A DNA stretch of 64,000 bases, taken from positions 4,060,001-4,124,000 of the forward strand of contig NZ_CP149822.1 in NCBI RefSeq assembly GCF_038396755.1, read 5' to 3'. The position numbers were made by a program, and so were the translations under genes. This document shows, piece after piece, positions 1,352 through 63,403 of the stretch. This stretch comes from Chitinophaga pollutisoli. Lineage in GTDB: Bacteria > Bacteroidota > Bacteroidia > Chitinophagales > Chitinophagaceae. The notes beneath the pieces are model-generated. The model made no database searches. It worked only from the letters and a program-made list of their open reading frames with translations, and was not told where the DNA came from. Numbering within the stretch: position 1 is the first letter of the stretch; every line of letters begins with the position of its first letter.

Positions 1352-2307
1352 ATGAAACCGCTGAAAAATAAAGTTATGCTTGTGGCAGGCGCCACAAGAG
1401 GAGCCGGAAGGGGCATTGCCGCTATGCTGGGCGAAGCCGGCGCCACCGTATACTGTACCGGCCGTAGTGTGAGAGGAGCACTGGCCTCGGGCCCCCAGCG
1501 CCCGGAAACCATCGAGGAAACGGCCGAAATCGTTACGCAATTGGGTGGTGCAGGAATCCCCGTGCAGACAGACCATAGCAAAGAAGCCGACGTAATCGCC
1601 CTGATGGACCGGATCCGCGCAGACCATGGTCATCTCGACGTACTCGTGAACGACGTATGGGGCGGCGACGCCCTCATGCAATGGGGCCAGCCTTTCTGGG
1701 AAAACGATCTATCAAAGGGATTCCAGATGATGCGCCAGGCCATCGATACCCACATTATCACCGCGAAGTATGCGGTCCCCCTGATGCTTCCAAAAAACAA
1801 GGACTTATCGTCGAAATCACCGACGGAGATGGCTATTTCTACCGCGGACAGCTCTTCTACGATCTGGTCAAAACAACAATCATTCGCCTGGCATACAATA
1901 TGGCGCAGGATCTGGAGCCCCACAACATCGGCGCCCTCGCCGTCACCCCCGGTTTCCTCCGCTCAGAAGCCATGCTCGAGCACTTCGGTGTCACCGAGAA
2001 CAACTGGAAAGACGGCACCGCCGTCGATCCTAACTTTATCGCCTCGGAAACACCCTGGTTTGTTGGCCGCGCCGTTGCCGCCCTCGCCGCCGATCCTAAC
2101 GTTTTCGAAAAAAGAGGTAAAGTCTTCAGTTCCTGGAACCTCTCCGATGAATATGGATTTACCGACCAAAACGGTGCCCGCCCGCATTGGGGCAACTACG
2201 TCAAAACAACCATCCCGGAATATATGCACAAACCGCTCGATGACGAATTCTATAGCTACTGGAAATTGATTTCAGGCAAAAAGATCGGCGCGGACGCATG
2301 GGGTTGA
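1352..2307 (+). pseudogene. SDR family oxidoreductase, interrupted by a -1 frameshift
   Basis: Short-chain dehydrogenase/reductase; restored length 318 aa. The N-terminal Rossmann motif is GATRGAGRGIA (about residues 11-21), followed by a variant LVNDVWGG strand. After the break the catalytic YDLVK (YxxxK, about residue 170) and a normal C-terminus (to 2307) are present in the next frame. The break is in the A run 1792-1797: one more A would join ...PLMLPKK with QGLIVEITDGDG. As written, the first frame runs on to 2269 with unrelated sequence. The ATG at 1352 is preferred over the upstream in-frame start at 1304, because the fold begins right after it. The frame at the break reads CCA AAA AAC, a canonical A-AAA-AAC slippery heptamer, so some full-length protein could still be made. 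A sequencing error is more likely. Substrate unknown. Confidence 0.8.
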
Positions 2308-2510
2308 CTTACACGGTAGCCCGCTATCATAGCTAATTTGAATCGCCGCGGAGGAGAATGTACATCGACTGACAGATCAAAGAGCGGCGATACCGATGGC
2401 ATATTTGTACCGTGTACAATACAGTCCCGTCGCGGATCGTAGCCAACAAAGCGAGGGCCGCCACAACGGTCGTGTATCCACAACCATTCAACCATCAAAC
2501 AATAGAAATC

Positions 2511-2541
2511 AAAAAGGCGCCGGAAGTTCGGCGCCTTTTAC
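2511..2541 (-). terminator. Terminator after hisS
   Basis: Inverted repeat AAAAGGCGCCG / CGGCGCCTTTT, giving a T run in the minus direction 24 bases after the hisS stop. It could also stop transcription from the SDR side. Confidence 0.8.
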
Positions 2542-2564
2542 AAGATCTTGCGGGCTTGCCACTA

Positions 2565-3908
2565 TTAAAAAACAAAAGCTTCCAGCTCTTCAATGCTAAG
2601 CTGGTGGCGCTGTTTACCCGTCATATTTTTGAGGAACACCGTGCCCGGGGCATTGTCTTCCACATATCCGATATACGGCACGCCGCGCTTTTCGGCGTAT
2701 TTATATTGTTTGTCCTGTTTCACATCGTCAGGGTAAATCTCTGCATTGACGCCCCGCTGCCGCAACCGCGTTACGTAGCCATACACTTCCGCCAGCTTTT
2801 CCGCTCCGGGATGGAGGAAAATAACTTGGGTACCCTGTTGCGCGGTTTCCGGGAACAATTGAAGTTCCTCTAGCACGTCGTAAATGCGATCTACGCCGAA
2901 GGAAATGCCAACGCCGGAAATACCTGGGAGCCCGAAGAGGCCTGTCAGATCGTCGTAGCGGCCGCCGCCGCCGATGCTGCCCATTTTCACCGTATCCGGG
3001 GCTTTTACCTCCACGATCATCCCGGTGTAGTAATTGAGACCCCGTGCCAGCGTCAGGTCAATTTCCGGCGGCGAACTGAATTGCGTAAGCCCGCTGCCCA
3101 GGATGAAACGCAATTCTTCCACACCTTTCAAACCCGTAGGCGAACCGGCGAAAACCTCCGCCAGGCGATCAAGCTTTTCGTCGTTACTGCCCCGTAACGC
3201 GATAAAGGCCATCACTTGCTCCACCTCGTGCGCCAGAAGCCCGCGGCCGGTTAGTTCGTCGCGGACGCCGGAGTCGCCGATTTTGTCAAGCTTGTCGATC
3301 GCGATGGTGATATCGAGCATGAGGTCGGGTCGCCCCACCAGCTCCGCGAGCCCGGTGAGCACCTTGCGGTTGTTGACTTTCATTTGGTAGCCGCCGAGGC
3401 CCAGGGAACTAAAAACGGTATCGTAAATCGACAACAGGTCGATTTCGTTCAGGAGGGAATTACTGCCCACCACGTCGGCATCGCACTGGTAGAACTCGCG
3501 GTAGCGCCCGCGCTGGGGCTTGTCGCCGCGCCATACCGGCTGCATCTGGTAACGTTTGAACGGTAGCTGCAGCTTGCCCTGGTTCATGACTACATACCGT
3601 GCGAAAGGTATGGTGAGGTCGTATTTGAGGGATTTTTCGCACAGCAGAATTCCCAGTTCACGGCTGTCTTTCGCCATTTGCGCCTGTCCGAGGATATCGC
3701 CGTTGTTGAGGATCTTGAAGATCAGTTTGTCGCCTTCCTCGCCATATTTGCCGAGCAGGGTGGAAGTGTTTTCCATAGCGGGTGTTTCCAGGGGCTGGAA
3801 GCCGAACCGCTCAAATGTCTGCCGGATGGTGGCGAAGATGTAGTTGCGCTTGCGGACCACGTCCGGCCCGAAGTCGCGTGTCCCTTGGGGGATGCTGAGT
3901 TTTGCCAT
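2565..3908 (-). CDS. hisS: Histidine--tRNA ligase
   Basis: Class II aminoacyl-tRNA synthetase that charges tRNA-His in the cytoplasm; 447 aa, normal for the family. Visible are the N-terminal PQGTRDF, the ATP-site TIPFARY (about 99-105), motif 2 (PVWRGDKPQRGRYREF, about 124-140), the GGGRYD histidine-site loop and motif 3 GVGISFGVDR, then a C-terminal anticodon-binding domain. ATG at 3908 is chosen over an in-frame TTG at 3923, since homologues begin right before the KLSIPQGTRDF segment. It lies 30 bases after the tyrosine phosphatase gene on the same strand and is probably transcribed with it. Confidence 0.96.
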   Translation of the reverse strand: MAKLSIPQGTRDFGPDVVRKRNYIFATIRQTFERFGFQPLETPAMENTSTLLGKYGEEGDKLIFKILNNGDILGQAQMAKDSRELGILLCEKSLKYDLTIPFARYVVMNQGKLQLPFKRYQMQPVWRGDKPQRGRYREFYQCDADVVGSNSLLNEIDLLSIYDTVFSSLGLGGYQMKVNNRKVLTGLAELVGRPDLMLDITIAIDKLDKIGDSGVRDELTGRGLLAHEVEQVMAFIALRGSNDEKLDRLAEVFAGSPTGLKGVEELRFILGSGLTQFSSPPEIDLTLARGLNYYTGMIVEVKAPDTVKMGSIGGGGRYDDLTGLFGLPGISGVGISFGVDRIYDVLEELQLFPETAQQGTQVIFLHPGAEKLAEVYGYVTRLRQRGVNAEIYPDDVKQDKQYKYAEKRGVPYIGYVEDNAPGTVFLKNMTGKQRHQLSIEELEAFVF

Positions 3909-3938
3909 GCTATTTCGCGTCAAGAATGTTAGAAAAGT

Positions 3939-4372
3939 TTAACCGAGGCGGACGATCCGCTCGCAGGCGTCGTGGATAAGCCGGTACACAGGCTCGAAAA
4001 GGGCGTCGTCGTACCAGGGATCAGGTACCGGCTGCTGGTCTTCCAGCAACAATTGTACCTTTTGCCGGTCGGCCTCGGAGCGCGCTTTGCGGAGAACGTC
4101 ACGGTAATTGTCGAGGTCCATGACGAAGATCCGGTCGAACCGGTCAAAATCTTCCGTGGTGAACTGCCGGCCTCGGAGCCCGGAGATGTCAACCCCATTT
4201 TTTTCGCCACCGCTACCGAGCGCCGGTCGGGCGGGTGACCCACATGCCAGTCGCCGGTTCCAGCCGAATCGATTTCCCAATCCAGGCCGTTTTGGCCCGA
4301 CAGGTGGCGGAGGATGCCTTCGGCAAGGGGAGACCGGCAAATGTTGCCGAGGCAGACCATCAGTATTTTCAT
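3939..4372 (-). pseudogene. Low-molecular-weight protein tyrosine phosphatase, frameshifted
   Basis: Cytoplasmic LMW-PTP of 144 aa once repaired. The active-site P-loop CLGNICRS (residues 7-14, Cys7 nucleophile and Arg13) lies at the start in one frame. The general-acid loop PDPWYDD near the C-terminus lies in the next frame. The break is in the T run 4198-4204 (A7 on the coding strand): one more base joins VAVAKK with NGVDISGLRG. As written, the first frame ends at 3929 with a scrambled tail from about residue 59 and has lost the general acid, so the product would be inactive. It is the first gene before hisS. A homopolymer deletion error is the likeliest cause. Confidence 0.85.
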
Positions 4373-4660
4373 GTAAATAAGCTTGACCGGTATCGTTTGG
4401 TAATCAATGATTTCTATGGAATCATCCCTTCGCGGCGACCCGGTTTTTCAGACCGCAAACCTACCGAATTTTCAGGGAAACCGCTAACGCATTTTGAAGG
4501 GATTGCATATGTTAAAACTTTGGTGTATTATGGAATTTGAAAGGATCGGCATCATCCTTTTGAAAGCTTTTGAAACAGCCCGAAAAATTTTTAACAATCG
4601 AATAAAAGTTTGATGCGGTAGAAAAAAGCAATTTTTTTGTATACTTGTAATTTGCCACCA

Positions 4661-4894
4661 ATGCGACAGGAGAACGACAATACAAAACAACGGATGAACG
4701 TGCAATACCGCCCGGTGGGCGAACTGATCAGGGGAGTATTATTTATTCTTTTCGGATTGTATGCACTGTTCTCGGAGAAATTAGGAATGGGAAAACTGAA
4801 CTTGTCAGAGACATGGCTGTACATATTGGCCGGCGCGTTAGGTGTTTATGGATTATTTCGTGTCTACAGGGGTATCAAACAATTATTCTTTTAA
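4661..4894 (+). CDS. Small two-helix membrane protein, function unknown
   Basis: 77 aa (66 aa if the ATG at 4694 is used). Two hydrophobic segments (GVLFILFGLYALF and WLYILAGALGVYGLFRVY) are joined by a short polar loop, so it is probably an inner-membrane hairpin. An AGGAGA at 4667 is too far from 4694 to decide the start. It is read with the following substrate-binding lipoprotein (22-base gap). I do not recognise a characterised family. Confidence 0.65.
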   Translation: MRQENDNTKQRMNVQYRPVGELIRGVLFILFGLYALFSEKLGMGKLNLSETWLYILAGALGVYGLFRVYRGIKQLFF

Positions 4895-4916
4895 CCAAGT
4901 ATCACCCACAGTGCGT

Positions 4917-5843
4917 ATGTTTTTAAAAGCTAAAAACTGGATGGGCATGGCATTGGCGACGGCTTCCGTTTCCATGCTGGCCGTAGGTTGCGGAGGCGCA
5001 GACAATTCCGGGAAAGGTGAACTGGACACCCCCACGAAAGGAGAAATCCATATCTCGGTTGATAAAACCTATCAGCCGCTGATGGAGTCCGAAATCAGGG
5101 TGTTCGAGTCGCAGTACCCGAAAGCGAAGATCATCGCCCATTACAAACCCGAAGCGGAATGCTTCAAGGATTTGTTTAACGATAGTGCGCGGCTCATAAT
5201 TGTGACCCGCGACCTGAAGGAAAACGAACTGGAATATTTCAAGAAAGAAAAGATGCGTCCGCAAAGCGCCAAGCTCGCTACAGACGCCATCGCCCTGATC
5301 GTGAACCATAAAAACGCCGATTCCATCCTTACGATGGACCAGGTGCGGGAAATCATGAACGGCAAAGCGCAGAAGAAATGGAACATCGTTTTCGATGACC
5401 AGAACTCCAGCACCGTTCGTTATATCCTCGACTCCATCAACAAGGGACAACCGCTACCGCCCAATACCATGGCGGCAAAGTCCAACGAGGAAGTGCTGTC
5501 GCATGTGGAGAAGGATGTGAACGCTGTCGGCGTTATCGGTGTAAACTGGATCTCCGACACCAATGATTCCACCGCGATCGAATTCAGCAGCCGCGTTACT
5601 ACGGTGAAGCTGCGCGGAGACGGATATACGGATTTCGTGAAACCGTATCAATACTATATCGGAACCAAATCTTACCCGCTCACCCGGGGGATGTTCTATA
5701 TTTTGAAGGAACCGCGTCAGGGGCTGGGCTCCGGTTTCGTGACATTTTTATCATCCCAGCCAGGCCAACTTGTGATAGGTAAGTTTAAATTATTCCCTGC
5801 CCGTTTAAATATCGTGTTCCGGGAAGCCACTTTATCGGAGTAG
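4917..5843 (+). CDS. Phosphate-binding-like (PstS type) substrate-binding lipoprotein
   Basis: 308 aa. An N-terminal signal with lipobox (SMLAVGCGG, Cys near residue 24) predicts a lipoprotein. The body looks like the periplasmic-binding superfamily of PstS: start strand GEIHISVDKTYQPLMESEI, repeated T/S-rich turns, a NSSTVRYILDSI segment and a GSGFVTFLSS C-terminal block. No pstCAB transporter lies nearby; the partners are a small membrane protein and TPR proteins. In Bacteroidota such genes often travel with TonB-ExbB-ExbD energy-transfer genes, which are absent here, so the ligand is uncertain. ATG 4917 is chosen because the signal peptide starts there; an earlier start at 4842 would overlap the previous gene. 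Confidence 0.75.
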   Translation: MFLKAKNWMGMALATASVSMLAVGCGGADNSGKGELDTPTKGEIHISVDKTYQPLMESEIRVFESQYPKAKIIAHYKPEAECFKDLFNDSARLIIVTRDLKENELEYFKKEKMRPQSAKLATDAIALIVNHKNADSILTMDQVREIMNGKAQKKWNIVFDDQNSSTVRYILDSINKGQPLPPNTMAAKSNEEVLSHVEKDVNAVGVIGVNWISDTNDSTAIEFSSRVTTVKLRGDGYTDFVKPYQYYIGTKSYPLTRGMFYILKEPRQGLGSGFVTFLSSQPGQLVIGKFKLFPARLNIVFREATLSE

Positions 5844-5901
5844 CCATCCAATTAGAAGCTAAAAACTAAATACTGATAACACAACTAAAACCGGATTGCT
5901 C

Positions 5902-7620
5902 ATGAACAGAAGGAAAAGTTTATTTGTAGCCATGCTCTGCATAGCCAACGGAGCTATGGCACAAACAGTGGAAGATGGTTTGAAGGATTTGTACTACGGA
6001 AAGTATCAAACTGCCAAGCAAAACCTCGAAAAAGCCATCACCGCGAAACCTACGGATGACCGCGCTTATTACTACCTCGGCATCGCCGAGTTAGGCCTGG
6101 AGAATAAAGACGCAGCCGCAGCCGCCTTCACCAAAGGCCTCACCGCCGTTCCCAATTCCCCGTTGCTCATGGTAGGACAGGGGCGTATCGATCTCCTGAA
6201 CGGCAAAACTGCCGAAGCCAAGCAAAAATTCGAAGCTGCCAGCACCGCCACCGAAGGTCGTGACGGCGACGTAGCCCGTGCCATCGCCGATGCCAACACC
6301 GAAGTGAAAGGTGGCGACCGCGGTTACGCGCTCACCATCATGGAGAAACTCCTCAACAACGAAGGACGTAAGAAAAAACAAATGTATACGGCGACCGCAG
6401 CCGATTACATCGAACTGGGCGACGCTTACCGTTTCCTGGGCGGTGAAAACGGCGGCAAAGCGATCACTACTTACGAAAAAGCACTCGAGGTAGACGCCAA
6501 CAACGCCGAAGCCGTGATGAAACAAGGCCTGGTAAACTATAACGCCCGCCTGCTCCAGCAAGCCGTGGCAGATTGGGCCAAAGCCACCAACATGGACGCG
6601 AACTACGCACCTGCGTATTTCGAACTGTACCAGTTCTACATTACCCAGCGCAAGGAACAATTCTCCCTCCCCCATGCCGCGCAATACCTGCAGAAGTATG
6701 TGGAAGTAAGTGATCCTTCCGACAAGGCGAAGAACGAATACTACCTGGCGGCCATCAACTTCTACCAAAAAGATTATGACGGTGCCATCGCGAAAGCGAA
6801 AGCCCTGCTGCCCACGGCAAACGAAGTTTACAAAGGTAAACTCACCTTGCTGGCTGCCGATGCCCACCTGCAGAAAGGCGACTCCCTTTCCGCAAAAGCA
6901 CTCATGGACGAGCGCGTGAAATCCGTTCCGGCAGATCAGCTGCAGGCGAACGATTACAAACTGCTCAGCGCCATTTACACCAAACTGAAAAATTCCGATT
7001 CCGCCACGCAGGCCGGATACCAGGAAACCGCCGGTTTGTACCTGGAGAAATTCGCTGAAACCGATACTACCACCGACGCGGAGAAATTCCGCAACGTGGC
7101 CGACGCATACAAAGAAATGCGTAACTACGGTAAAGCCGCTACCTGGTACGGCAAAGCACTGGAAGTAAAAGACAACCCCGGCGCTATGACCGACCACTTC
7201 TACAAAGCATTCTATGAGTACTACGCTGCCCAATACGGTGCATCCGACTCCTCCTGGACCAGCTTCACCGAGAAGTATCCCACCCAGCCCACTGCGTTCT
7301 ACTGGAAAGGCATGGCTAACTTCGCCCTCGACCAGCAGGCCAAGGAAGGCCGCGGTAAAGAGGCCTTCGAGAAATACATCTCAATGGTGAAGCCCGAAGA
7401 CGAAGCCCGCAACAAGCGCTTCCTCCTCAACGCTTACACCTACCTGATGCTGTATCACTACAATAAGGAAGATCAGGCCGCCATGCAGCCCTGGATGGAT
7501 AAGCTGGTAGCGATCGACCCGAACAATGATACCGTGCGCCAGGTGAAGGAATTCCTCGAATCCTCCAACAAAGCCGCAGGCAGCTCCGCGAAAGCAGCCA
7601 CCGCCAACGGTTCTAAATAA
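5902..7620 (+). CDS. Secreted tetratricopeptide-repeat protein (first of a tandem pair)
   Basis: 572 aa. A signal peptide (hydrophobic core, then NGAMAQ) precedes repeated 34-residue helix pairs with TPR signatures, for example RAYYYLGIAELGLENKDAAA and a second block at about 170-230. It is likely a periplasmic or outer-membrane-associated scaffold. The gene downstream at 7861 is a clear paralogue over the full length (shared LYYGKY, PTDDRAYYYLGIAELG, DLLNG, AIADANTEVKGGD, LGGENGGKAI). ATG 5902 is preferred to the TTG six bases earlier. It follows the binding protein by 58 bases and ends at a terminator. Confidence 0.8.
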   Translation: MNRRKSLFVAMLCIANGAMAQTVEDGLKDLYYGKYQTAKQNLEKAITAKPTDDRAYYYLGIAELGLENKDAAAAAFTKGLTAVPNSPLLMVGQGRIDLLNGKTAEAKQKFEAASTATEGRDGDVARAIADANTEVKGGDRGYALTIMEKLLNNEGRKKKQMYTATAADYIELGDAYRFLGGENGGKAITTYEKALEVDANNAEAVMKQGLVNYNARLLQQAVADWAKATNMDANYAPAYFELYQFYITQRKEQFSLPHAAQYLQKYVEVSDPSDKAKNEYYLAAINFYQKDYDGAIAKAKALLPTANEVYKGKLTLLAADAHLQKGDSLSAKALMDERVKSVPADQLQANDYKLLSAIYTKLKNSDSATQAGYQETAGLYLEKFAETDTTTDAEKFRNVADAYKEMRNYGKAATWYGKALEVKDNPGAMTDHFYKAFYEYYAAQYGASDSSWTSFTEKYPTQPTAFYWKGMANFALDQQAKEGRGKEAFEKYISMVKPEDEARNKRFLLNAYTYLMLYHYNKEDQAAMQPWMDKLVAIDPNNDTVRQVKEFLESSNKAAGSSAKAATANGSK

Positions 7621-7646
7621 TTCCAGGTTTTAATCCAGGATTACCG

Positions 7647-17449: not shown

Positions 17450-17453
17450 GGCA

Positions 17454-27946: not shown

Positions 27947-28746
27947 ATGACTAACTTCACGACATTCCGAAAGTTTTGCGCGCTGGCGTGCGTGGCCCTT
28001 GCGATGAGTTGCAGCCGCGAAAATGAGGCGATCATTCCTGCCGCACCGGTAGAAAAACCTGGCGCGGAAACGGCGCCACCACCCGCCAGCAGCACCCGCC
28101 TGACCACAGGCGTAACCGCGCAAAAAGTGAGAAGCCCTAAGCAAATCACTGATTTCCTTCGTCAGCTGCCGGCTACGTATAATGACAATCCGAACAAGAA
28201 ATGGCCGGTCATTATTTTCCTCCATGGCGTTGGTGAGCGCGGTAACGATATCAACATGGTAAAACGTGCCGGGCTGGCGGCCCATGCGGCCAAAGACGCC
28301 AACTTTCCATTTATTGTAATTTCTCCCCAGTGCAAAACCGCCAGTTGGTGGGACGTGCCCAGTTTGAAGTCCTCTACAGCCAGGTGCTGAAGGATTATAA
28401 CGTGGATTCTTCGCGGATCTATTTGACGGGCCTGAGCATGGGCGGGTATGGCACCTGGAGCTGGGTGTTGAACAAACCGGAGCGCTTTGCCGCGGTGGTA
28501 CCCATCTGCGGGGAGGGTACTCCTTCAAAAGCTTGTGTGTTAAAGAGCAAACCGGTGTGGGTTTTCCACAATGCAGACGACCCTACCGTTCCTGTCAAAG
28601 GCTCCCGGGATATGGTGAATGCCATCCGGAATTGCGGCGGAACCCTGGTTAAATACACGGAAAATGCGACCGGCGGACATAACGCCTGGACGAAAGCATA
28701 TAGTGATCCCGCACTGTATACGTGGTTAAATCAACAGAAGAAATAG
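27947..28746 (+). pseudogene. Alpha/beta-hydrolase lipoprotein (esterase or peptidase type), frameshifted
   Basis: Restored length 266 aa. Lipobox CVALAMSC near residue 21, a Pro/Ala linker, then an alpha/beta hydrolase with FLHGVGERG, nucleophile elbow GLSMGG, HNADDPTVPV (Asp) and GGHNAW (His). The frame breaks near 28366: the paralogue reads PSLEVLHAQV, here PSL is followed by a wrong frame ending at 28387. One added G (TTG GAA) restores PSLEVLYSQV and the nucleophile. As written, the first frame loses all three catalytic residues. The linker suggests display on the outer membrane or cell surface. Confidence 0.8.
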
Positions 28747-28764
28747 CGGAAAAAACCCGTTTTT

Positions 28765-28798
28765 AATCCCGCGCGCCTCCCGGCCGCGGGATTTTTTT
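28765..28798 (+). terminator. Terminator after the first esterase gene
   Basis: Stem ATCCCGCG / CGCGGGAT followed by seven T. Confidence 0.85.
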
Positions 28799-28913
28799 GG
28801 CATTGCAGAGATGTCCACTCCGTTTAAATCAGAATTGGCGAGTAGTGCTGAAAGGGTTGTATATTATTTATTAAAATGAATTAGAAATATGTTAAATTTA
28901 TAACGAAACCTTT

Positions 28914-28935
28914 TGCCATGGCGGGTTTTATGGCA
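28914..28935 (+). promoter_or_regulatory. Conserved leader hairpin, copy 2
   Basis: TGCCAT - 10 nt (GGCGGGTTTT) - ATGGCA, a perfect 6-bp stem, 55 bases before the ATG of the second esterase. Against copy 1 the two differing stem positions change a Watson-Crick pair to a wobble pair, so pairing is kept. Confidence 0.5.
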
Positions 28936-28990
28936 TATAAGTAGTATTTCCCGGAGGAAATAATGCAGTATTTTAGCGGTTCCTAAACTT

Positions 28991-29815
28991 ATGAAAAGTA
29001 AAATGAATTTAAGATTAGTTTTAATGTTAGCCTGGACGACGTTTATTTTAAGTTGTAGCAGCGAAAAAGACACCGACGTAACCCCTGCCCCCGCTCCCGG
29101 AAGCGGTCAGGAAGAAGGCCCTGGAACGGGTACACCACCGGAAACCCCCAAGCCTTCCGTTCCCTTGCCTACCGGCGTAACTGCGCAGAAGGTTAAGAAT
29201 CCGAAAGAGATTACTGATTTCCTTGTTCAGTTGCCCGCTACTTACAATGACGATCCAAACAAAAAGTGGCCGGTGATATTCTTCCTTCATGGCATGGGAG
29301 AACGGGGTGACGACATCAACATCATCAAGCGCGCCTCACTGGCGGCGATCGCGGCCAAAGACGCGAATTTCCCCTACATCCTTATTTCGCCGCAATGCAA
29401 AACTCCCAGCTGGTGGAATATTCCGAGCCTGGAAGTACTCCACGCCCAGGTGATGAGCGATTACAAGGTGGACCCTTCCCGTATATACCTCACGGGATTG
29501 AGCATGGGCGGCTTTGGTGCCTGGACCTGGGCGCAGACAAAGCCGGAGCGTTTCGCTGCCGTGGTGCCCATCTGCGGAGAAGGTACGCCTGCAAGTGCCT
29601 GCGTCTTGAAAGACAAGCCGTTGTGGGTTTTCCATAACGCAGACGACCCTACCGTTCCCGTGAAAGGATCGCAGGATATGGTCAAGGCGCTCAGGGATTG
29701 CGGCAGCACCCTGGTGAAGTACACGGAAAATGAATCCGGCGGACACGACGCGTGGACAAAAGCCTACAGCGATCCGGCCTTGTTTACGTGGCTGAACCAG
29801 CAGTCGAAAAAATAG
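28991..29815 (+). CDS. Alpha/beta-hydrolase lipoprotein (esterase or prolyl-oligopeptidase-like)
   Basis: 274 aa, intact paralogue of the preceding gene. Lipobox TTFILSC (Cys about residue 22), an acidic-Pro-Gly-rich linker to about residue 60, then a hydrolase domain with FLHGMGERGDD (oxyanion region), GLSMGGFG (Ser nucleophile), HNADDPTVPVKG (Asp) and SGGHDAW (His). Related to secreted feruloyl- or acetyl-esterase-like domains of polysaccharide degraders; substrate not assignable. The pair arose by tandem duplication that included the upstream region. Confidence 0.85.
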   Translation: MKSKMNLRLVLMLAWTTFILSCSSEKDTDVTPAPAPGSGQEEGPGTGTPPETPKPSVPLPTGVTAQKVKNPKEITDFLVQLPATYNDDPNKKWPVIFFLHGMGERGDDINIIKRASLAAIAAKDANFPYILISPQCKTPSWWNIPSLEVLHAQVMSDYKVDPSRIYLTGLSMGGFGAWTWAQTKPERFAAVVPICGEGTPASACVLKDKPLWVFHNADDPTVPVKGSQDMVKALRDCGSTLVKYTENESGGHDAWTKAYSDPALFTWLNQQSKK

Positions 29816-38531: not shown

Positions 38532-40255
38532 TCAATCGGGCTTTTTCCCGTCGAGAAAAGTGTTAATCGTATTGATTTCGGCCTGGCTTTCGCCGTTCTG
38601 GCCAATGGTGTAGCTGGAGTAGAAGTGCTCGGCGGAGCCGGCGCCATTATCCAGGTCGATGTTCCGGCGCAGGTAAGCGGGGATGTTTTCGATCTCCTGG
38701 TTGTTATCCATGTTCTTCACGTTGAAGCTGATGCTGCGGAGCTTGGCCACGCGCTCGAGCTGTTTCCTCTTCTGTTCTTCGGCCTGGTCGTCGTGCAGTT
38801 GCTGGGGCTGCGGGGGAGGAGCGGGCGTTGGGGCCGGTTCTTCCTCTTTGTAGACCATCTTCATTTCGTCCTGCTGGTTATTGGTATTCACCGGTTCCAC
38901 GTAGATATTGGAGGGACGGTTGAGGTACCCTCCGGAACCTGCGCTGGTAGCGGGTTTTTGCTGCGCGGGTTGTGCTTGCGGCTGGGGAGCTGCCTGGGCT
39001 TGGGGTGCGGCGGGTTCTACAGGCTCGATGTTGAGCGTATAGGTCTCGCGTTCCGGTTGCTGGGGAGCCGGGGGAGGAAAGAAGCGGCGCTGGCCGGGTG
39101 GGTAACGGTAGGCTCCACGAGGCGGGGCGCCATCACGTCGAGGATTTCAGGCTCGTCGTCGGTGAAGAGCGTGGCCTGGTTGTGCATTTTCTTTTCTTCG
39201 CCGTCGCCGCCGAGGGTCATCACGATTTTAGGCTCTTCTTTCGGTTCTGCCGAAGGCGTTGCCTGTTGTTGCTTCGCCTGGCGGATGGGGTTTTGTTCAA
39301 AGCCGGTGGCGATGATCGTAACGCCCAGGTTTTGCTCCAGCGACTGGTCGTAACCCACACCGAGGATCACGTCGCAATCTTCGCCGGCCATGCTTTGCAC
39401 ATAGGCCTGGATGATATCCATTTCATCGAGCGTGTGCTCGAATTCGCCTTCGGCGGAGGAAATATTGATGAGGATCCATTTGGCGCCTTTGATATCGTTG
39501 TCGTTCAGCAGCGGGGAAGTCAGCGCGTCTTCGATCGCTCGCTGCGCGCGGTTTTCGCCGTCAGCCACCGCCGATCCGAGGATGGCTACGCCGCCGTTGC
39601 GCATCACGGTGCACACATCGGCGAAATCGACGTTGATCTGGCCGGTGGAGTTGATCACGTCGGTGATACATTTGGCTGCCGTTGCCAGTACGTTGTCCGC
39701 TTTTTCGAATGCGGCCTTGAATTTAAGGTCGCCGAATTTCTGGCGGAGTTTGTCGTTGGAAATGATCAGCAGGGTATCGACGTAATCTTTCAGGCGGTTG
39801 ATGCCTTCTTCTGCCTGCAGCATTCTCTTTTTCCCTTCGTAAGAGAAAGGCGTGGTAACGATGCCCACGGTGAGGATACCCAGTTCCTTGCATATTTTGG
39901 CGATGATGGGAGCGCCTCCGGTGCCGGTGCCGCCGCCCATGCCTGCAGTGATGAACGCCATTTTGGTGTTCACCTCCAGTATTTTTTTGATTTCTTCAAA
40001 TGATTCTTCCGTTGCCTGCTCGCCGATCCGGGGATTGGCGCCGGCTCCGAGCCCCTGCGTCAGATGCGGTCCCAGCTGTACCTTGTTGGGTACGGGGCTG
40101 TTTGCAATCGCCTGTGCGTCGGTATTGCAAATAATGAAGTTCACCCCCTCGATGTTCTGACTGAACATGTGGTTGACCGCATTGCTTCCTCCGCCACCAA
40201 TGCCTATCACCTTGATGATGGAAGATTTTTCCTTTGGAAGATCAAAATGTATCAT
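38532..40255 (-). pseudogene. ftsZ: Cell division protein FtsZ, interrupted by one missing base
   Basis: Tubulin-like GTPase that forms the Z-ring; 574 aa once repaired. Nucleotide site GIGGGGSNAVNH (18-29), tubulin signature GGGTGTGGAP (about 107-116), C-terminal GTPase half to about residue 320, then a Gln/Pro-rich linker. The conserved C-terminal peptide IPAYLRRN (525-532) binds FtsA-type anchors. The frame breaks in the C5 run (39070-39074 on the plus strand): a sixth C gives SFLPPAPQQPERETY and continues to the stop at 38532. As written the protein ends at 39017 after 412 aa without the essential tail. An essential gene broken this way points to sequence error. Confidence 0.9.
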
Positions 40256-54866: not shown

Positions 54867-54874
54867 TACCTTTG
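54867..54874 (+). promoter_or_regulatory. -7 box of bamD
   Basis: TACCTTTG, an exact match. It ends only 12 bases before the bamD ATG, so the mRNA leader should be about 6-8 bases (nearly leaderless). The -33 element is not clear. Confidence 0.65.
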
Positions 54875-54886
54875 CGATTCTTTTTT

Positions 54887-55720
54887 ATGAGGAAAATTTT
54901 CTTATTTACTGGCCTCGTGGCCCTTACGCTCGCTTCCGCTTCCTGCAACAGGGAACTCCGGCGCATTGAAAAAAGCAATGACCTGGACAAGAAGCTGGCC
55001 TACGCCGACAAAATGTACGAGAAGAAGAAGTACCAGATGGCTCAGACCTTATATGAGGAAATGATCCCCGTATTCAAAGGCACAGACAAGTTCGAGCCCC
55101 TGTACTACAAGTACGCCTACTGCTCTTACTACCTGAAAGATTATACCCAGGCCGGCTTCCACTTCAAAAACTACCTTGACGCACTGCCTAGCAGCCCCCG
55201 CGCCGAGGAAGTCGACTACATGAAAGCCTACAGCCATTATAAACTTTCCCCCAAAGTCCCCCTCGACCAAACCAATACCATGAAGGCCATTGCCGACATG
55301 CAAACCTTCATTAATACATACCCCCAGTCGGAAAAAGTGACCGAAGCTTCCGTGGTGATCGACAATCTCCGCCGGAAACTGGAACAGAAAGACTATAACG
55401 CAGCCGAACTTTATTACAACCTAGGTCACTATAAAGCCTCCGGCGTTGCTTTCAAAAGCCTCATGCGCGCCTATCCCGACTCCGATAAAAGCGATAGCTA
55501 CAAATACATGGCCATCAAGGCCTATTTCCAGTACGCCAGAAACAGCGTACCCTACCGCCAGAAAGAACGTTACGAAACCGTCGTAAACGAATACATGGAA
55601 TTCAACGACCGTTACCCGTCCAGTAAATTGCGCGGGGATGCCGAAAAATATTATACCTTAGCAAAAAATAACATTAAAACGCTGGAAAATGAGCAAAATA
55701 AAACGGAGTCTGTCCAGTAG
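54887..55720 (+). CDS. bamD: Outer membrane assembly lipoprotein BamD
   Basis: 277 aa. Lipobox LASASC (Cys about residue 20), then about five TPR units, e.g. YADKMYEKKKYQMAQTLYEE and DYTQAGFHFKNYLDALPSS. Part of the BAM complex at the inner face of the outer membrane. ATG 54887 is used; the TTG at 54872 lies inside the promoter. Overlaps rpoZ by 32 bases. Confidence 0.93.
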   Translation: MRKIFLFTGLVALTLASASCNRELRRIEKSNDLDKKLAYADKMYEKKKYQMAQTLYEEMIPVFKGTDKFEPLYYKYAYCSYYLKDYTQAGFHFKNYLDALPSSPRAEEVDYMKAYSHYKLSPKVPLDQTNTMKAIADMQTFINTYPQSEKVTEASVVIDNLRRKLEQKDYNAAELYYNLGHYKASGVAFKSLMRAYPDSDKSDSYKYMAIKAYFQYARNSVPYRQKERYETVVNEYMEFNDRYPSSKLRGDAEKYYTLAKNNIKTLENEQNKTESVQ

Positions 55721-56030
55721 CCTGAACCCCTGGGTTGAGACTAAAAACACGACTGACATCAAGAACAGAACCGGTAATCTGTACGAGTCCATTGCCATTA
55801 TTGCCAAAAGGGCAAACCAGATCAACATTACCGTGAAGGAAGAACTCCACTCCAAACTGGAAGAATTCGCCTCCCACACGGATAACCTGGAAGAAGTGCA
55901 CGAGAACAAAGAGCAGATCGAAATCTCCCGTTTCTACGAAAGAATGGCTAACTCCGCTATTCAGGCAACCCAGGAATTCCTGGACAATAAGATCTATTTC
56001 CGCAAAAACGACGACGATCTGTACTCCTGA
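55689..56030 (+). CDS. rpoZ: DNA-directed RNA polymerase subunit omega
   Basis: 113 aa, Bacteroidota-type omega. It shows NRTGNLYESIAIIAKRANQI (the conserved helix that wraps the beta' subunit) and an acidic C-terminal part. Starts inside the end of bamD in another frame, so translation is probably coupled. Confidence 0.9.
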   Translation: MSKIKRSLSSSLNPWVETKNTTDIKNRTGNLYESIAIIAKRANQINITVKEELHSKLEEFASHTDNLEEVHENKEQIEISRFYERMANSAIQATQEFLDNKIYFRKNDDDLYS

Positions 56031-56100: not shown

Positions 56101-56105
56101 GCCAG

Positions 56106-57311
56106 ATGTTACAAGGAAAGAAGATCCTACTGGGCGTATCCGGCAGCATCGCCGCCTATAAAGCCGCCCTCCTCGTACGCCTCCTCGTCAAAGAAGGTGC
56201 CCAGGTGAAGGTGCTCATGACCCCCGCCGCCTGCGAGTTCATCACGCCCCTCACCCTCGCCACCCTCTCCAAACAGGAAGTCGGCGTCCATATCTCAGAA
56301 CATGGCAGCTGGAGCAACCACGTCATGCTCGGCCGGTGGGCCGACGTCATGCTCATCGCCCCCGCATCCGCCAACACCATCGCCAAAATGGCCAACGGCA
56401 TCTGCGATAACCTCCTCCTCGCCGTGTACCTTTCCGCTACCTGCCCCGTCCTCTTCGCACCCGCGATGGACGAAGATATGTGGCTCCATCCCGCCACCAA
56501 AGCCAACGTCGCCAAACTGCTCAGCTACGGCCACCGCCAGCTGCCCGTTCACCGGGGCGAACTGGCCAGCGGCCTCTTCGGCGAAGGCAGGATGGCCGAA
56601 CCCGAAGCCATCGTTTCTTACCTCTACACCTTCTTTACCGGCCGCCCCGAAGGCCAGCCCCTCAAAGGCAAAACCGCCCTCGTGTCCGCCGGGCCCACCC
56701 AGGAACCCATCGACCCGGTGCGCTTCATCTCCAACCACTCCAGCGGTAAAATGGGCATCGCCATCGCCGAAGCCCTCGCCGAAGCCGGCGCCACCGTCCA
56801 CCTCGTGCTCGGTCCCACGCCCAAAGAAACCCGCCACGCCGGCGTTACCACCCAAAAAGTAGTGACCGCCGCCGAAATGTTCGATGCCTGCACCGCTTTC
56901 GCCCCCCAGGCCGATATCATGGTCATGGCCGCCGCCGTTGCCGACTACCGCCCGCGCTCTGTCGCCGATAAGAAAATCAAGAAGAAAGATGACGAAATGA
57001 ATCTCGAACTGGAAAAAACGGCCGACATCGCCCGCGCCCTCGGCGCTTCCAAGCAAAGCCACCAGCTCCTCGTCGGCTTCTCCCTCGAAACCAACAACGA
57101 ACGCGAATACGCCCTCAAAAAACTGAACGATAAAAACCTGGACATGGTCGTCCTCAACTCCCTGAACGACCCCGGTGCCGGGTTCAACTACGATACCAAC
57201 AAAATCACCCTCCTCCGGGCCAACGGGCAGGAGAACCAGCTCCCCCTGCAATCCAAGCAGGAAGCTGCCAGGGAAATCGTTTCGGCTATAATCGACATGC
57301 AACATGGGTAA
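56106..57311 (+). CDS. coaBC: Bifunctional phosphopantothenoylcysteine decarboxylase / phosphopantothenate--cysteine ligase
   Basis: 401 aa, coenzyme A synthesis. CoaC half: GVSGSIAAYKAA, the active-site HVMLGRWAD His, the substrate clamp PAMDEDMW and GEGRMAEPEAI. CoaB half from about residue 185: VSAGPTQEPIDPVRFISNHS and VMAAAVADYRP. Overlaps the next gene by 8 bases. Confidence 0.96.
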   Translation: MLQGKKILLGVSGSIAAYKAALLVRLLVKEGAQVKVLMTPAACEFITPLTLATLSKQEVGVHISEHGSWSNHVMLGRWADVMLIAPASANTIAKMANGICDNLLLAVYLSATCPVLFAPAMDEDMWLHPATKANVAKLLSYGHRQLPVHRGELASGLFGEGRMAEPEAIVSYLYTFFTGRPEGQPLKGKTALVSAGPTQEPIDPVRFISNHSSGKMGIAIAEALAEAGATVHLVLGPTPKETRHAGVTTQKVVTAAEMFDACTAFAPQADIMVMAAAVADYRPRSVADKKIKKKDDEMNLELEKTADIARALGASKQSHQLLVGFSLETNNEREYALKKLNDKNLDMVVLNSLNDPGAGFNYDTNKITLLRANGQENQLPLQSKQEAAREIVSAIIDMQHG

Positions 57312-58221
57312 ACACCTTCTCGCTTTCTGCCTCTGTTTGGTGGCATCCCTTGCCGCCCGCGCCCAGGAATTCCGCGCCAACGTTTCCGTGCAGGCCGCGC
57401 AACTCGGCACCAACGTGGAAAAACGCATCTTCAACACCCTCCAGACCGCCCTCAACGAGTTCATCAACGGCCGGCGGTGGACCGACGATGCATTCACCCA
57501 GGGCGAGCGTATCGAATGTAATTTCCTCCTCAACGTCACACAAGACCTGGGGAACAACACCTACCGCGCCAGCCTCACCGTACAGGCTGCCCGCCCCGTC
57601 TACAACACCAACTACAATTCCAGCATCCTCAACATACAGGACAATAACCTCGTTTTCCGCTACGTGGAGTTCCAGCCCATGGAGTTCAACGAGCAACGGA
57701 TCTCGGGGAACGATCCCCTGGCATCCAATCTCACGGCCGTTGTGGCGTACTATTGCTACATCATCCTCGGCCTGGATTACGATAGCTTTTCCCCCAGGGG
57801 CGGCGACAATTATTTTAAAAAAGCCCTTAATATTGTGAATAACGCCCCCGACGGCAAGGACGTTTCGGGGTGGAAGGCGTTCGAAGGCAACAGGAACCGC
57901 TACTGGCTGCAGGACAACCTCCTGAACGTCAAATTCGCGCGCTTCCACGACGTGATGTATACCTATCACCGCCTGGGGCTCGACCAGATGTACGACGATA
58001 TGAACAAAGGCCGCGCCGCGGTGATGAATTGCCTGAACATGCTCATGGGCATCCACGAAGACCAACCCAATTCCATGGTGATGCAGAGCTTTTTCAACGC
58101 CAAGAACGACGAGCTGATGAAACTGTTCGCCAAGGCGCCGCCGCAGGAGAAGATGCGGGCCATCCAGATGTTGTCTGTCCTCGATGTGCCCAATGCCAAC
58201 AAGTACCAGCAAATGAAGTAA
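57304..58221 (+). CDS. DUF4835 (PorD-type) secreted protein
   Basis: 305 aa. Signal peptide ending ASLAARAQ. Family marks: ANVSVQAAQLGTNVEKRIFNTLQTALNEFINGRRW and the late LVFRYVEFQPMEFNEQRI; homologues are linked to type IX secretion and follow coaBC throughout Bacteroidota. Probably periplasmic. The exact role is not readable from the sequence. Starts within the end of coaBC. Confidence 0.82.
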   Translation: MGKHLLAFCLCLVASLAARAQEFRANVSVQAAQLGTNVEKRIFNTLQTALNEFINGRRWTDDAFTQGERIECNFLLNVTQDLGNNTYRASLTVQAARPVYNTNYNSSILNIQDNNLVFRYVEFQPMEFNEQRISGNDPLASNLTAVVAYYCYIILGLDYDSFSPRGGDNYFKKALNIVNNAPDGKDVSGWKAFEGNRNRYWLQDNLLNVKFARFHDVMYTYHRLGLDQMYDDMNKGRAAVMNCLNMLMGIHEDQPNSMVMQSFFNAKNDELMKLFAKAPPQEKMRAIQMLSVLDVPNANKYQQMK

Positions 58222-58229
58222 ATACGACT

Positions 58230-58706
58230 ATGAAGAAATGGAGTAAGACGGCAGGCGTCCTTTTTATCGCCCTTTGCCTGGCAGCATGCGGAGAAGCGGA
58301 CCGTACACCCAGCGGTGTATTGGGGAAGGATGAAATGCGCGATATTCTGTTGGATATGAACTATGCGGACGTTTATGCCCGCGAGCAGGTGCCGGAAGGC
58401 CGGAGCCCCGCCGACATGAACGAAGCCACGCGCGATTCCGCCGTTAAAACCTTCTACGCCCAGATTCTGATGTTACATAATACGAACCGCGAAACCTTCA
58501 TGAAAAGCTGGCAGTTTTATGAATCGCACCCCGACCGGCTCGAGGCGATTTATAAAGAAATGGGCGAAATCGTGAAGCGCAAGCGCGAAGTAATCGATTC
58601 CACGGATAAGGCCCGGATGGAGCGTGAGCTGAGAAAGACCGGCCGCACCCGGATGGATTCTCTGTTCTGGCCCGTGCCCGACAGCCTGAAGCTGAATATA
58701 TTCTGA
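58230..58706 (+). CDS. DUF4296 lipoprotein
   Basis: 158 aa. Lipobox LCLAACG (Cys about residue 18), then helical segments with EMRDILLDMNYADVYARE and FMKSWQFYESHPDRLEAIYKEM. A small envelope lipoprotein usually found after DUF4835; function unknown. ATG 58230 is chosen as the signal peptide begins there; the open frame extends upstream inside the previous gene. Confidence 0.8.
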   Translation: MKKWSKTAGVLFIALCLAACGEADRTPSGVLGKDEMRDILLDMNYADVYAREQVPEGRSPADMNEATRDSAVKTFYAQILMLHNTNRETFMKSWQFYESHPDRLEAIYKEMGEIVKRKREVIDSTDKARMERELRKTGRTRMDSLFWPVPDSLKLNIF

Positions 58707-58731
58707 CGTTATAGACACCAAAACAGCCAAG

Positions 58732-59424
58732 ATGAACAAGATCGTTGCAAACGCCGACGAGGCGATAGCCGATATCCCCCATGGCGCTACCCTCATGCTC
58801 GGCGGATTCGGCCTGTGCGGCATCCCGGAAAACTGTATCGCGGCCCTTGTGCGCAAGGGCACCGGCAACCTGACGTGTATCTCCAACAACGCGGGGGTAG
58901 ACGAGTTTGGATTGGGATTACTGCTGAAAACCAGACAGATTAAAAAGATGATGGCGAGCTACGTGGGCGAGAACGCCGAGTTCGAACGGCAATTATTGTC
59001 GGGCGAACTGGAAGTGGACCTCATTCCACAGGGCACCCTCGCCACAAGGATCGCCATGGCCGGCATGGGCATCCCGGCATTTTTCACCCCCGCGGGCTTC
59101 GGCACCGAGATTGCGGAAGGGAAAGAAACCCGGCGCTTCGGGGATAAGGATTATCTCATGGAAATGGCGCTTCATGCCGATTTCTCCATCGTGAAAGCCT
59201 GGAAGGGCGACCTGATGGGGAACCTCGTTTTCCGCAAAACCACCCGCAACTTCAGCACCTCCATGGCAAGGGCGGGCAACATCACCATCGCGGAAGTGGA
59301 AGAACTGGTGGAACCCGGCCAGCTGGACCCGGACGCCATACATGTTCCCGGGATTTACGTCCACCGCATCTTCAAGGGACGCGATTACGAAAAACGCATC
59401 GAAAGAAAAACTGTCAAAATCTGA
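58732..59424 (+). CDS. scoA: 3-oxoacid CoA-transferase subunit A
   Basis: 230 aa. Class I CoA-transferase alpha subunit: [33 protein letters not shown], and [15 protein letters not shown]. With ScoB moves CoA from succinyl-CoA to acetoacetate (ketone body use). The start of scoB lies 7 bases later. Confidence 0.92.
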
Positions 59425-59431
59425 TTTTCCT

Positions 59432-60088
59432 ATGGCTCTCGATAAATATGGCATTGCCAAACGCATCGCGCAGGAATTGCGCGACGGGATGTATGTAAAC
59501 CTGGGGATCGGCATTCCCACGCTGGTATCCAACTTCGTTCCGCAGGGGATTTCCATCATGCTGCAATCCGAAAACGGGATGCTGGGTATGGGGCCTTATC
59601 CTACAGAAGAAGGCATTGATCCCGATCTGATCAACGCCGGGAAGGAAACGGTAACCATCCTCCCGGGGGGCGCCTTCTTCGACTCCGCTGAAAGCTTCGG
59701 CATGATCCGCGCCGGGAAGGTAGACCTCACCGTGCTGGGCGCCATGGAAGTATCCGACTCCGGCGATATCGCCAATTGGAAAATACCCGGGAAAATGGTG
59801 AAAGGCATGGGTGGCGCTATGGACCTCGTGGCTTCGGCCAAAAACATCATTGTGGCCATGATGCACACCAATCCCAAGGGCGAAAGCAAACTCCTGCCGC
59901 AATGCTCCCTGCCATTGACCGGCGTGCGCTGCGTCCGGAAAATCGTTACCGAAATAGCCGTCCTCGATGTAACCCCCGATGGCTTCCGCCTGCTGGAACG
60001 CGCGCCGGGCGTGAGCGTCGAGGAAATTAAAGCCAAAACAGCCGGCCGGCTGGTCGTGGAAGGGGATATTCCGGAAATGGTATTATAA
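59432..60088 (+). CDS. scoB: 3-oxoacid CoA-transferase subunit B
   Basis: 218 aa. Contains the catalytic Glu motif ([12 protein letters not shown], about residue 47) that forms the CoA thioester, and [14 protein letters not shown] 59432 is used; the longer frame from 59342 would overlap scoA by 83 bases. Confidence 0.92.
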
Positions 60089-60102
60089 TCGTAAATTAGG
60101 GC

Positions 60103-60933
60103 ATGCAATTGTGTTACAACGGAAGATTCATGGCGGCCGGCAAACCGTTGCTCACCGTCGATAACCGTAGTTTCAGGTATGGCGACGGCTGTTTTGAAAC
60201 CATGAAAGTATACCGGGGGCAGCTCCTGCTGGCCGACCTCCATTTCGAGCGCCTGATTGCCAGCCTGCATATCCTGCACTTCCACATACCGCCGCATTTC
60301 ACGAAAGAATATTTTACCGAGCTCATCGTCCAGCTCTGTCGCGCCAATAGCGTGGCGGAGCTGGCCCGTGTGCGCCTCACCGTCTGGCGCGCCGGCACGG
60401 GATTGTACGACCCGGTAGATCATACCCCGCATTTCCTCATCCAGTCCTGGGAACTGCCGGAGCACATCTTCGAACTTAACAGCGCCGGGCTGTCGATGAC
60501 CGTTTTCCCCGACGCCATCAAATCCGCCGACAAGCTCGGTAACGTTAAATCCAATAACTGCCTGCCCTATGTACTGGCCGCCATGTATGCCCGGCAGCAC
60601 CAGGTTTCGGAGGCAGTCCTCCTGAATCAGTACGGCCGGGTTGCCGATACAACCGTAGCGAATGTTTTCGTGGTGAAAGACGGTGAGATTTTCACGCCGC
60701 CGCTCACCGAAGGCTGTGTTTGCGGCGTTATGCGCAAACACCTGCTTACCGCCGGCTTCCAGTTCCCGATCTCCGAGCGGCCGCTCACAGTGGGCGATTT
60801 GCAAACCGCCGATGAGATCTTCCTGACCAACGCTATCTATGGCATCAAGTGGGTAGGGGAGTTTGGAGATACTTCCTACGGCAACGCCACCTCCGCCATC
60901 CTCCATGAACTGCTGTTCGAATCCATGCTGTAG
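60103..60933 (+). CDS. Class IV PLP-dependent aminotransferase or aminodeoxychorismate lyase
   Basis: 276 aa. DRSFRYGDGCFETMKV-like start (DNRSFRYGDGCFETM), PLP Lys in GNVKSNNCLPY (about K149), and EAVLLNQYGRVADTTVANVFVV, then a TPPL..GC.CGVMR segment. The RYGDG..ET start fits 4-amino-4-deoxychorismate lyase (PabC) and branched-chain aminotransferases alike; the short length slightly favours PabC. Cytoplasmic. Confidence 0.85.
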   Translation: MQLCYNGRFMAAGKPLLTVDNRSFRYGDGCFETMKVYRGQLLLADLHFERLIASLHILHFHIPPHFTKEYFTELIVQLCRANSVAELARVRLTVWRAGTGLYDPVDHTPHFLIQSWELPEHIFELNSAGLSMTVFPDAIKSADKLGNVKSNNCLPYVLAAMYARQHQVSEAVLLNQYGRVADTTVANVFVVKDGEIFTPPLTEGCVCGVMRKHLLTAGFQFPISERPLTVGDLQTADEIFLTNAIYGIKWVGEFGDTSYGNATSAILHELLFESML

Positions 60934-61031
60934 GGGATTGCAGGAGACATACGCCACTTTTGAACTATCTTTGCAGACGCGATAACGCAGGATAATATTT
61001 CTTTAAGCCAGACTTCCCAACTTCGATATAC

Positions 61032-62009
61032 ATGACCATCAGAGATCTCTTGATTTATACCGGACTGTACAGGCCCTATGTCAACTACAAGTTTCTCCCC
61101 GACGAGAATAACATCGAAGTACTGAACTTCTATCCCACCAACCTGCAGGAACTGTGGCATTACCGCTATGTTATGCACCATTTCCGCGACCTGGTAACGC
61201 CGGACAACACCCTGCTGATCGGATCTGTGTTCGGGCCAAAGCGCAAACTCAAGCTCAGCAAGAGCCATATCAAAATGTTCTATACCGGCGAAAACGTGAA
61301 GCGTTTCCCCGATTTCCTCGATCAATGCAAAAAGTTCGCGGATATCGCCATCGCTTTCGATTATGCCGACACCGATCAGTACCAGCGTTTCCCCATCTGG
61401 CTGGAATATTTCTTCGAACCCGATTCCACACCAGCTTCCATCCGGAAAGAACTGGCGGAATTCGTCACCAATTACTGCCCCGACAACGAAAGGAAATTCG
61501 CCTCGCTCGTGTGCAGCCACGATAAAGGAAAACTTCGGACCATCCTCTTCCACGCCATGAGCACGATCGACCGGGTCGACAGCGGGGGCAGGTACCTCAA
61601 CAACACCAACGCCCTGCAGGATGAATTCCAAGACGACAAGGCGCGCTTCATCGGGCAGTATAAATTCAATATCTGTCCGGAGAATACCGACCGGGAAGGG
61701 TATGTCACCGAAAAGGTGTTCCAGGCCATCCGCAGCAATACCATTCCCGTGTACTGGGGCGGGCTGAACAATCCCGAGCCGGAGGTGCTGAATAAAGACG
61801 CCATCCTTTTCTACAACGGTCCTGATAGCATGCCCGGCTTGCTCAAACAGATCGAAGAGCTGCACCGCAACCCGAAGTTATTCAGCGAATTCCTCGCCCA
61901 GCCGAAATTCCAGCCGCATGCCGATGAATACATCATTCATCTTTTCGACAGCCTGCACCGGAAAATGAAGAAAGTGCTGACGAAGAAAGGCGGCGTCATC
62001 GTTCCGTAA
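61032..62009 (+). CDS. Glycosyltransferase family 10 (alpha-1,3-fucosyltransferase-like)
   Basis: 325 aa, no signal or membrane segment. The GT10 donor-site motif is seen at about 210-235: YKFNICPENTDREGYVTEK followed by VFQAIRSNTIPVYWGG. The C-terminal basic tail (KMKKVLTKKGG) may bind the membrane. It probably adds fucose (or a related sugar) from GDP-fucose to a surface glycan. No sugar-nucleotide or other polysaccharide genes lie nearby. Confidence 0.88.
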   Translation: MTIRDLLIYTGLYRPYVNYKFLPDENNIEVLNFYPTNLQELWHYRYVMHHFRDLVTPDNTLLIGSVFGPKRKLKLSKSHIKMFYTGENVKRFPDFLDQCKKFADIAIAFDYADTDQYQRFPIWLEYFFEPDSTPASIRKELAEFVTNYCPDNERKFASLVCSHDKGKLRTILFHAMSTIDRVDSGGRYLNNTNALQDEFQDDKARFIGQYKFNICPENTDREGYVTEKVFQAIRSNTIPVYWGGLNNPEPEVLNKDAILFYNGPDSMPGLLKQIEELHRNPKLFSEFLAQPKFQPHADEYIIHLFDSLHRKMKKVLTKKGGVIVP

Positions 62010-62105
62010 CAAATCTGCATGGTGATTATCGCCGTATATTCGTGTTTCCATCTGGTATTGATACTTACCGCCGGGGTTCCCGCAGCCGGGATTTAAACCG
62101 AGTAT

Positions 62106-63403
62106 ATGAAAGTAGTTATCTGCTGGTTCCGCCGGGACCTTCGCCTGCACGACAATGCGGCATTATACCACGCGCTCCGCAGCGGGTTCCCCGTTGTGCC
62201 CGCATTCATTTTCGACACCGATATCCTCGACGACCTGGATAGCCGTGCTGACCGCAGGCTGCAGTTCATTCACGATGCGCTGTCGGTGATGCAGTCGCGG
62301 TTGCTGAAGATGGGAAGCACGCTGCATGTGTATCATGGCACGCCCGCCGCGGCGTTCCGCCATTTTACGGAAGTGTACGAGGTAGCGGGCGTGTATGCCA
62401 ATCACGACTACGAGCCCTACGCCCGGCAGCGCGACGAGGCCATGGCGGCGCAATTGGGCGGTCAGGGGATCGGTTTTAAGACGTACAAAGACCAGGTGAT
62501 TTTTGAAAAAGGGGAAGTGTTGAAAGATAACGGTGCACCCTATACGGTGTTCACGCCGTACAGCCGCAAGTGGAAGGCGGCGCTGGAGCCTTTTTTCTCA
62601 AATCCTATCCTGCGGAAAAGTATTTTGAATATTTCCACCTGCAGGAGGAGCGCCCTGTGCCCACGCTTCCTGATATCGGCTTCGAAACTACCCGTCACGA
62701 TTTCCCGCCTCCCGATCCGGAAGACGCATTGATACAGCATTACGATAAAACCCGCGACTATCCTGCCATGCAGGGCACCAGCCGGTTGAGCGTGCACCTG
62801 CGGTTCGGCACGGTGAGTATCCGGGAGCTGGCGCGCAAAGCCATGCGATTAAATGAGACGTTCCTCAATGAGCTGATCTGGCGGGAGTTTTACCAGATGA
62901 TCCTCTGGCATTTTCCGGAAGTGGTGCATGCATCTTTCAAGAAAGAATACGACAAAATACAGTGGCGGAACAACGAAAGTGAATTCCATGCCTGGTGCGA
63001 GGGGCTAACAGGTTACCCCATCGTGGACGCCGGCATGCGCGAGCTGAATGCAACCGGATTCATGCACAACCGCGTGCGGATGGTGGTGGCGAGCTTTCTC
63101 ACAAAGCACCTGCTGATCGACTGGCGCTGGGGCGAGGCGTATTTCGCGAAGCAGCTCCTGGATTACGATCTGGCCGCCAACAACGGCGGCTGGCAATGGG
63201 CGGCTGGCTCGGGTTGCGATGCAGCGCCTTACTTCCGGGTGTTCAATCCTACGCTACAGGCGCAGAAATTCGACAAGGAAGGAAAATACATCCGGCGTTG
63301 GGTGCCCGAAATCGATGGGCTCCAATACGTGCAACCCATTGTAAATCATGAGATGGCCCGCAGGCGGGCGCTGGAGGTTTATGGGAAAGCACTGAAGCCC
63401 TGA
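62106..63403 (+). pseudogene. Deoxyribodipyrimidine photolyase, frameshifted
   Basis: Restored length 432 aa. N-terminal antenna domain (VVICWFRRDLRLHDNAALYHAL) in one frame; FAD domain in the next ([54 protein letters not shown] and [13 protein letters not shown]). The break is in the T run 62591-62596: a seventh T joins ALEPFF with [10 protein letters not shown]. Light-driven repair of UV dimers. The site reads CCT TTT TTC, a canonical T-TTT-TTC slippery heptamer that would give the right frame by a -1 shift; a deletion error is still more likely. Confidence 0.88.

Follow-up and report, generated by a model that had tools for sequence, protein, structure and literature searches.

Single-base losses, mostly beside homopolymer runs, split ftsZ and other genes of a single-contig Chitinophaga genome and very probably reflect consensus error

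RESULTS

The window examined here is a stretch of 64,000 nucleotides (positions 4060001-4124000) from the single-contig genome of a Chitinophaga soil bacterium (6,078,843 bases; completeness, 99.99%). Of the window, 28-46 kb aligns with four relatives: G006 (93% identity), a C. rhizosphaerae record (G040; 87%), Chitinophaga sp. E66 (G042, CP079103.1; 87%), and a record titled C. pinensis isolate 3 (G041; 85%). Five window genes, encoding a short-chain dehydrogenase (SDR), a low-molecular-weight phosphotyrosine phosphatase (LMW-PTP), an esterase-like alpha/beta hydrolase, FtsZ, and a DNA photolyase, each show a single change of frame, of the kind that one missing base would cause, and each is covered by two overlapping open frames. 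According to the original prediction, every one of them lacks a single base and has a length of 2 modulo 3. Both points were borne out: all five start-to-stop spans are 2 modulo 3, our frame finder calls exactly one loss in each gene, and DNA alignments with the relatives show one column absent from the window at each break. This finder is a codon-pair Viterbi model written for this analysis and used in a second version with changed start and stop costs; the first settings gave numerous very short spurious genes, did not detect the esterase loss, and called insertions at the esterase and at 4781. On simulated cases, the finder recovered 98/120 deletions, 94/120 insertions, and 82/120 stops, and it made calls in 0/120 untouched genes.

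The SDR gene (1352..2307, forward strand) is read in two frames that break at or near an A6 run (1792-1797), with the Pfam family adh_short on the upstream piece only and no Pfam match to the downstream piece. In a tblastn scan with the relatives' proteins as queries (478 query matches at 60% identity or more, restricted to genes without an ab initio event), this break appears as a -1 shift against G041 and G006, and the missing column, placed in an ambiguous stretch, differs from the run letter in 3/3 relatives. The LMW-PTP gene (3939..4372, reverse strand) changes frame at a T7 run (4198-4204); its two pieces match positions 1-61 and 56-142 of PF01451, that is, consecutive parts of one protein. 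The scan gives a -1 shift against G041, G006, and E66, and in 3/3 relatives the missing column does not hold the run letter. In the photolyase gene (62106..63403, forward strand), a break at a T6 run (62591-62596) separates two successive domains, PF00875 on one piece and PF03441 on the other; the shift is -1 against G041, G040, and G006, with a non-run letter in the missing column of 4/4 relatives. These runs, together with a G5 run in ftsZ, are present exactly as first described. The further claim that the lost bases lie inside the runs is less firm, since the gap is often filled by a non-run letter in the relatives.

The ftsZ gene (38532..40255, reverse strand) consists of a frame of 412 codons (39017-40255) and a second, downstream frame from 38532, with the break at the G5 run (39070-39074). 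The upstream piece holds both FtsZ domains, and the downstream frame, which has no Pfam match, carries the C terminus found in relatives; the missing column holds a non-run letter in 4/4 of them. FtsZ was encoded by one open frame of 554-630 codons in all 46 loci compared (L002-L047), and same-genus genomes had a frame of 562-624 codons in 24/24 cases, compared with 416 in our genome. The FtsZ relatives place the genome in Chitinophaga. The E66 locus (L048) is itself broken at codon 37. Part of the remaining loci (L049-L081) gave no readout, with base 3001 not at the gene start or the contig ending there.

The esterase-like gene (27947..28746, forward strand), whose start we picked by eye from a lipoprotein-like signal, changes frame near 28362-28366, where there is no long run. 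Its upstream piece has no Pfam match, and the break was not picked up by the tblastn scan, so that it rests on DNA alignments with relatives. These alignments agree with the original call of one lost base; they leave the lost letter, given there as a single G near 28366, ambiguous. An intact tandem paralogue lies at 28991-29815. The two esterase-like genes form a tandem pair with lipoprotein-like starts (27947-29815), and the first alone is split. We regard the esterase as the least certain of the five; its break is not at a run, and real decay could explain it.

The comparison with four relatives was extended to a contiguous region of 264 kb (the window and the adjoining 200 kb; 235.9 kb coding), with corresponding stretches from three relatives. 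By tblastn scan and alignments, 12 relative-supported frame breaks were found, 5 in the window and 7 outside, and each of them is the loss of one base (two-sided p = 0.0005 under equal odds of loss and gain); across the 264 kb, the relatives support neither a gain nor a nonsense lesion. The prediction of deletions alone, without insertions or stops, thus held in 12/12 cases, whereas its rate of about one per 13 kb must be lowered to one per 22 kb (one per 20 kb coding). Breaks are not significantly more frequent in the window than outside it (5 per 57.4 kb coding vs 7 per 178.5 kb; p = 0.29). The 12 breaks are a lower bound, because not every gene has a suitable relative. Comparison with close relatives, which had been proposed as a check, turned up intact copies with the extra base at the breaks, and at all 12 places at least one relative has an extra base relative to our genome. 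Each gene shows one lesion of a single type, and not the mixed or multiple lesions expected of pseudogenes. Scaling 12 breaks per 235.9 kb coding to about 5.4 Mb coding gives about 280 split genes (about 140-480 by Poisson), and split genes of this kind may number a few hundred genome-wide.

The raw tblastn tally in the 264 kb was 10 losses, 9 stops, and 1 gain; the scan classes the ftsZ break and a break at 184.4 kb as stops. Six apparent stops at 63.6-64.2 kb were rejected as an edge artefact, in which one G006 frame is cut at the stretch edge and its frame misread. Only E66 proteins gave the apparent shifts at 72.6 kb (the gain) and 162.2 kb (a loss), neither of which appears in the alignments with G040 and G041. 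Among the relatives, the same scan found no frame breaks in G006, one shift from one source in G040, and in G041 one gain (two sources) and one shift (one source). The frame finder made 17 ab initio calls in the 264 kb (14 losses, 1 insertion, and 2 stops), and 10 of the losses coincide with supported breaks. Without support in the tblastn scan were the losses at 171680, 194056, 197910, and 249343 and the stops at 128194 and 262720. The insertion called at 55718 also lacks support from relatives and sits where two genes overlap. Two same-strand open frames with a 32-base overlap occupy 54872-56030 of the window.

Besides ftsZ, the breaks split uppS and nadE, and all three genes are essential. 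PF00091 has one match in the whole genome, i.e., no second ftsZ copy was found. The only two uppS matches in the genome are the two pieces, which lie in different frames, and no second copy was found. Two strong NAD synthase matches are likewise the adjacent pieces of nadE; a third match elsewhere scores 30.2 bits, above the cut-off, and covers positions 14-84 of 242 (71 positions). A 16S rRNA family search, meant to look for such losses in an untranslated gene, found no match in our genome, and it also missed 5 of 14 named controls. The breaks are blind to gene importance, as expected of under-call errors.

Ten of the 12 breaks lie within 2 bases of a run of at least 5: eight are in or directly beside such a run, and two further gaps are one or two bases off it with the alignment as placed. 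By chance, 4.5% of positions would qualify with three bases of slack (p = 2e-12 for 10/12) and 6.0% with five (p = 4e-11). The esterase break and another, at about 113.3 kb of the 264-kb region, lie away from such runs. C or G makes up the run at seven of the 10 run sites. With run lengths taken by eye from the alignments, and if the losses are contractions by one, the loss rate for G/C runs is 0/221 at length five, 5/29 at six, and 2/5 at seven, and for A/T runs it is 0/157 at length 6, 2/23 at 7, and 1/4 at 8. The rate thus climbs with run length, although numbers are small and 2/12 breaks do not fit. At 184.4 and 258.5 kb, the run of the relatives is one base longer than ours. At sites where the missing column is filled by a non-run letter in the relatives, contraction needs a run-lengthening substitution in this lineage; we read these sites as runs that this lineage probably lengthened, which would have made them prone to under-calling, or alternatively as the loss of the run's neighbour.

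Run-length profiles were also compared between genomes. A/T runs of at least 9 are absent from 644 kb of our genome and from 61 kb of G006, and occur at 1.2 per 100 kb in G040 and 0.4 in both G041 and E66. G/C runs of 6 number 12.5 and 7.9 per 100 kb in our genome, 19.2 in G040, 15.0 in G041, 11.4 in G006, and 0.4 in E66; they are rarer in our genome than in G040 and G041 but not clearly rarer than in G006.

Elsewhere in the genome, we sampled nineteen spaced 20-kb stretches (L096, which falls inside the contiguous region, was dropped). Ab initio predictions alone, passed through likelihood and flank filters, gave 12 losses alongside 3 insertions and a single stop. With identical filtering, the contiguous region retains 7 losses, 1 insertion, and 1 stop; G041 retains 2 insertions, and G040 a loss and a stop. 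Also located at predicted breaks are pieces of CCA tRNA nucleotidyltransferase, TsaC, DprA, a Nif3-like protein, and an ABC transporter ATPase, and one split gene of the spaced sample encodes a SusC/RagA outer-membrane receptor. At L090:13775-17115, three of the predicted losses form a cluster with the stop, in an ABC-transporter-like piece and the adjoining gene, which has a PDZ piece; this region may be truly decayed. For 7 of the 9 losses outside this cluster, the ambiguity interval contains a run of at least 6; random coding intervals of equal length do so with probability 0.06-0.38.

DISCUSSION

Errors in long-read sequences are, as described in the Kastor report, predominantly homopolymer indels (PMC12007338). 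In the nanopore assembly treated there, most indels were false deletions, chiefly in runs of 4-5 and more often in A/T than in G/C, and a small share of errors removed a non-repeated base. The Homopolish report adds that such errors shift frames and inflate pseudogene counts (PMC8011154). Some of the drafts in that paper are dominated by insertions, and the sign of the error therefore varies with procedure. The breaks described here resemble the cases in both reports in that they are one-base, frame-disrupting losses, mostly at runs. They differ from the Kastor profile, with its peak at 4-5 and in A/T, in that G/C runs of 6-7 and A/T runs of 7-8 seem to be affected here.

On the strength of these sequence comparisons, we consider it very highly probable that the frame breaks are consensus errors and not biology, produced by homopolymer under-calling in a long-read consensus. 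The true run would exceed the written one by a base at each run site, and insufficient polishing of a long-read assembly would, probably, account for the under-calling of G/C runs of at least 6 and A/T runs of at least 7. The original prediction, which attributed the breaks to homopolymer deletion errors in the assembly, gains support from their common sign, their association with runs, their spread beyond the window, the intact copies in relatives, and the damage to essential genes. The similar sensitivity of the frame finder for deletions and insertions (98 vs 94 of 120) also counts for consensus error, as do the few frame breaks of G006, G040, and G041 (three between them) and the stronger bias of the same sign in E66. 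Against it stand the non-run letters in the gaps, the 2/12 breaks off runs, the 3 predicted insertions and 1 predicted stop of the spaced sample, and the finding that G/C runs of 6 are not clearly rarer than in G006.

The genes might instead be truly broken, either as recent pseudogenes or in a mutator lineage that has lost mismatch repair and suffers one-base slips in runs. Replication slippage too depends on run length, and loss of the esterase would be tolerable given its intact tandem paralogue, so that this gene alone could qualify as dispensable. A cell without ftsZ, uppS, and nadE, however, could hardly live, and we take this as the chief reason to doubt real decay. No second copy of the split ftsZ or uppS was found, the other match to the split nadE is weak, and no relative-supported gain or nonsense lesion accompanies the losses. 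We consider true breakage very improbable. A smaller chance still attaches to recoding, in which backward slippage by one base at runs, of ribosomes or of RNA polymerase, would yield full-length proteins. Such slippage occurs on A or T runs in other bacteria, and recoding would fit supported breaks that share a sign and lie mostly at runs, but 7/10 run sites are made up of C or G, and at two of the sites there is no long run. Nor is there a conserved shift site, because the relatives have an uninterrupted ftsZ and each of the 12 places has the additional base in at least one relative.

Phase variation at contingency tracts would likewise account for breaks that are mostly at mononucleotide tracts and for a split SusC/RagA receptor. 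The tracts are short (5-7), however, and many of the genes are housekeeping genes (ftsZ, uppS, nadE, and those for CCA tRNA nucleotidyltransferase and TsaC), and we hold this to be the least probable of the explanations considered. It is about as improbable as recoding that the written sequence is right and that the lineage tolerates hundreds of losses through routine transcription or translation slippage at C, G, A, and T runs.

If the breaks are consensus errors, they are ordinary ones but deserve flagging. A single-contig genome at 99.99% completeness can still hold split essential genes, in which automated annotation would report false pseudogenes or twin fragments (in ftsZ, uppS, nadE, and others), and pan-genome and essential-gene studies would inherit them. 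A run-length profile set against relatives offers a cheap, read-free test for such assemblies.

The E66 chromosome shows a similar picture, with one-base losses, many of them at runs and ftsZ included. In 280 kb of it (CP079103.1; L048, L136-L139, and L188-L197), 249 losses, 19 gains, and 63 stops were called. Losses there are about twenty times denser than in our genome (249 in 280 kb vs 12 in 264 kb), and, unlike our genome, E66 is nearly without G/C runs of 6. Positions 1-660 of the window have two matches in the E66 region at 93-94% identity, which suggests a repeated element.
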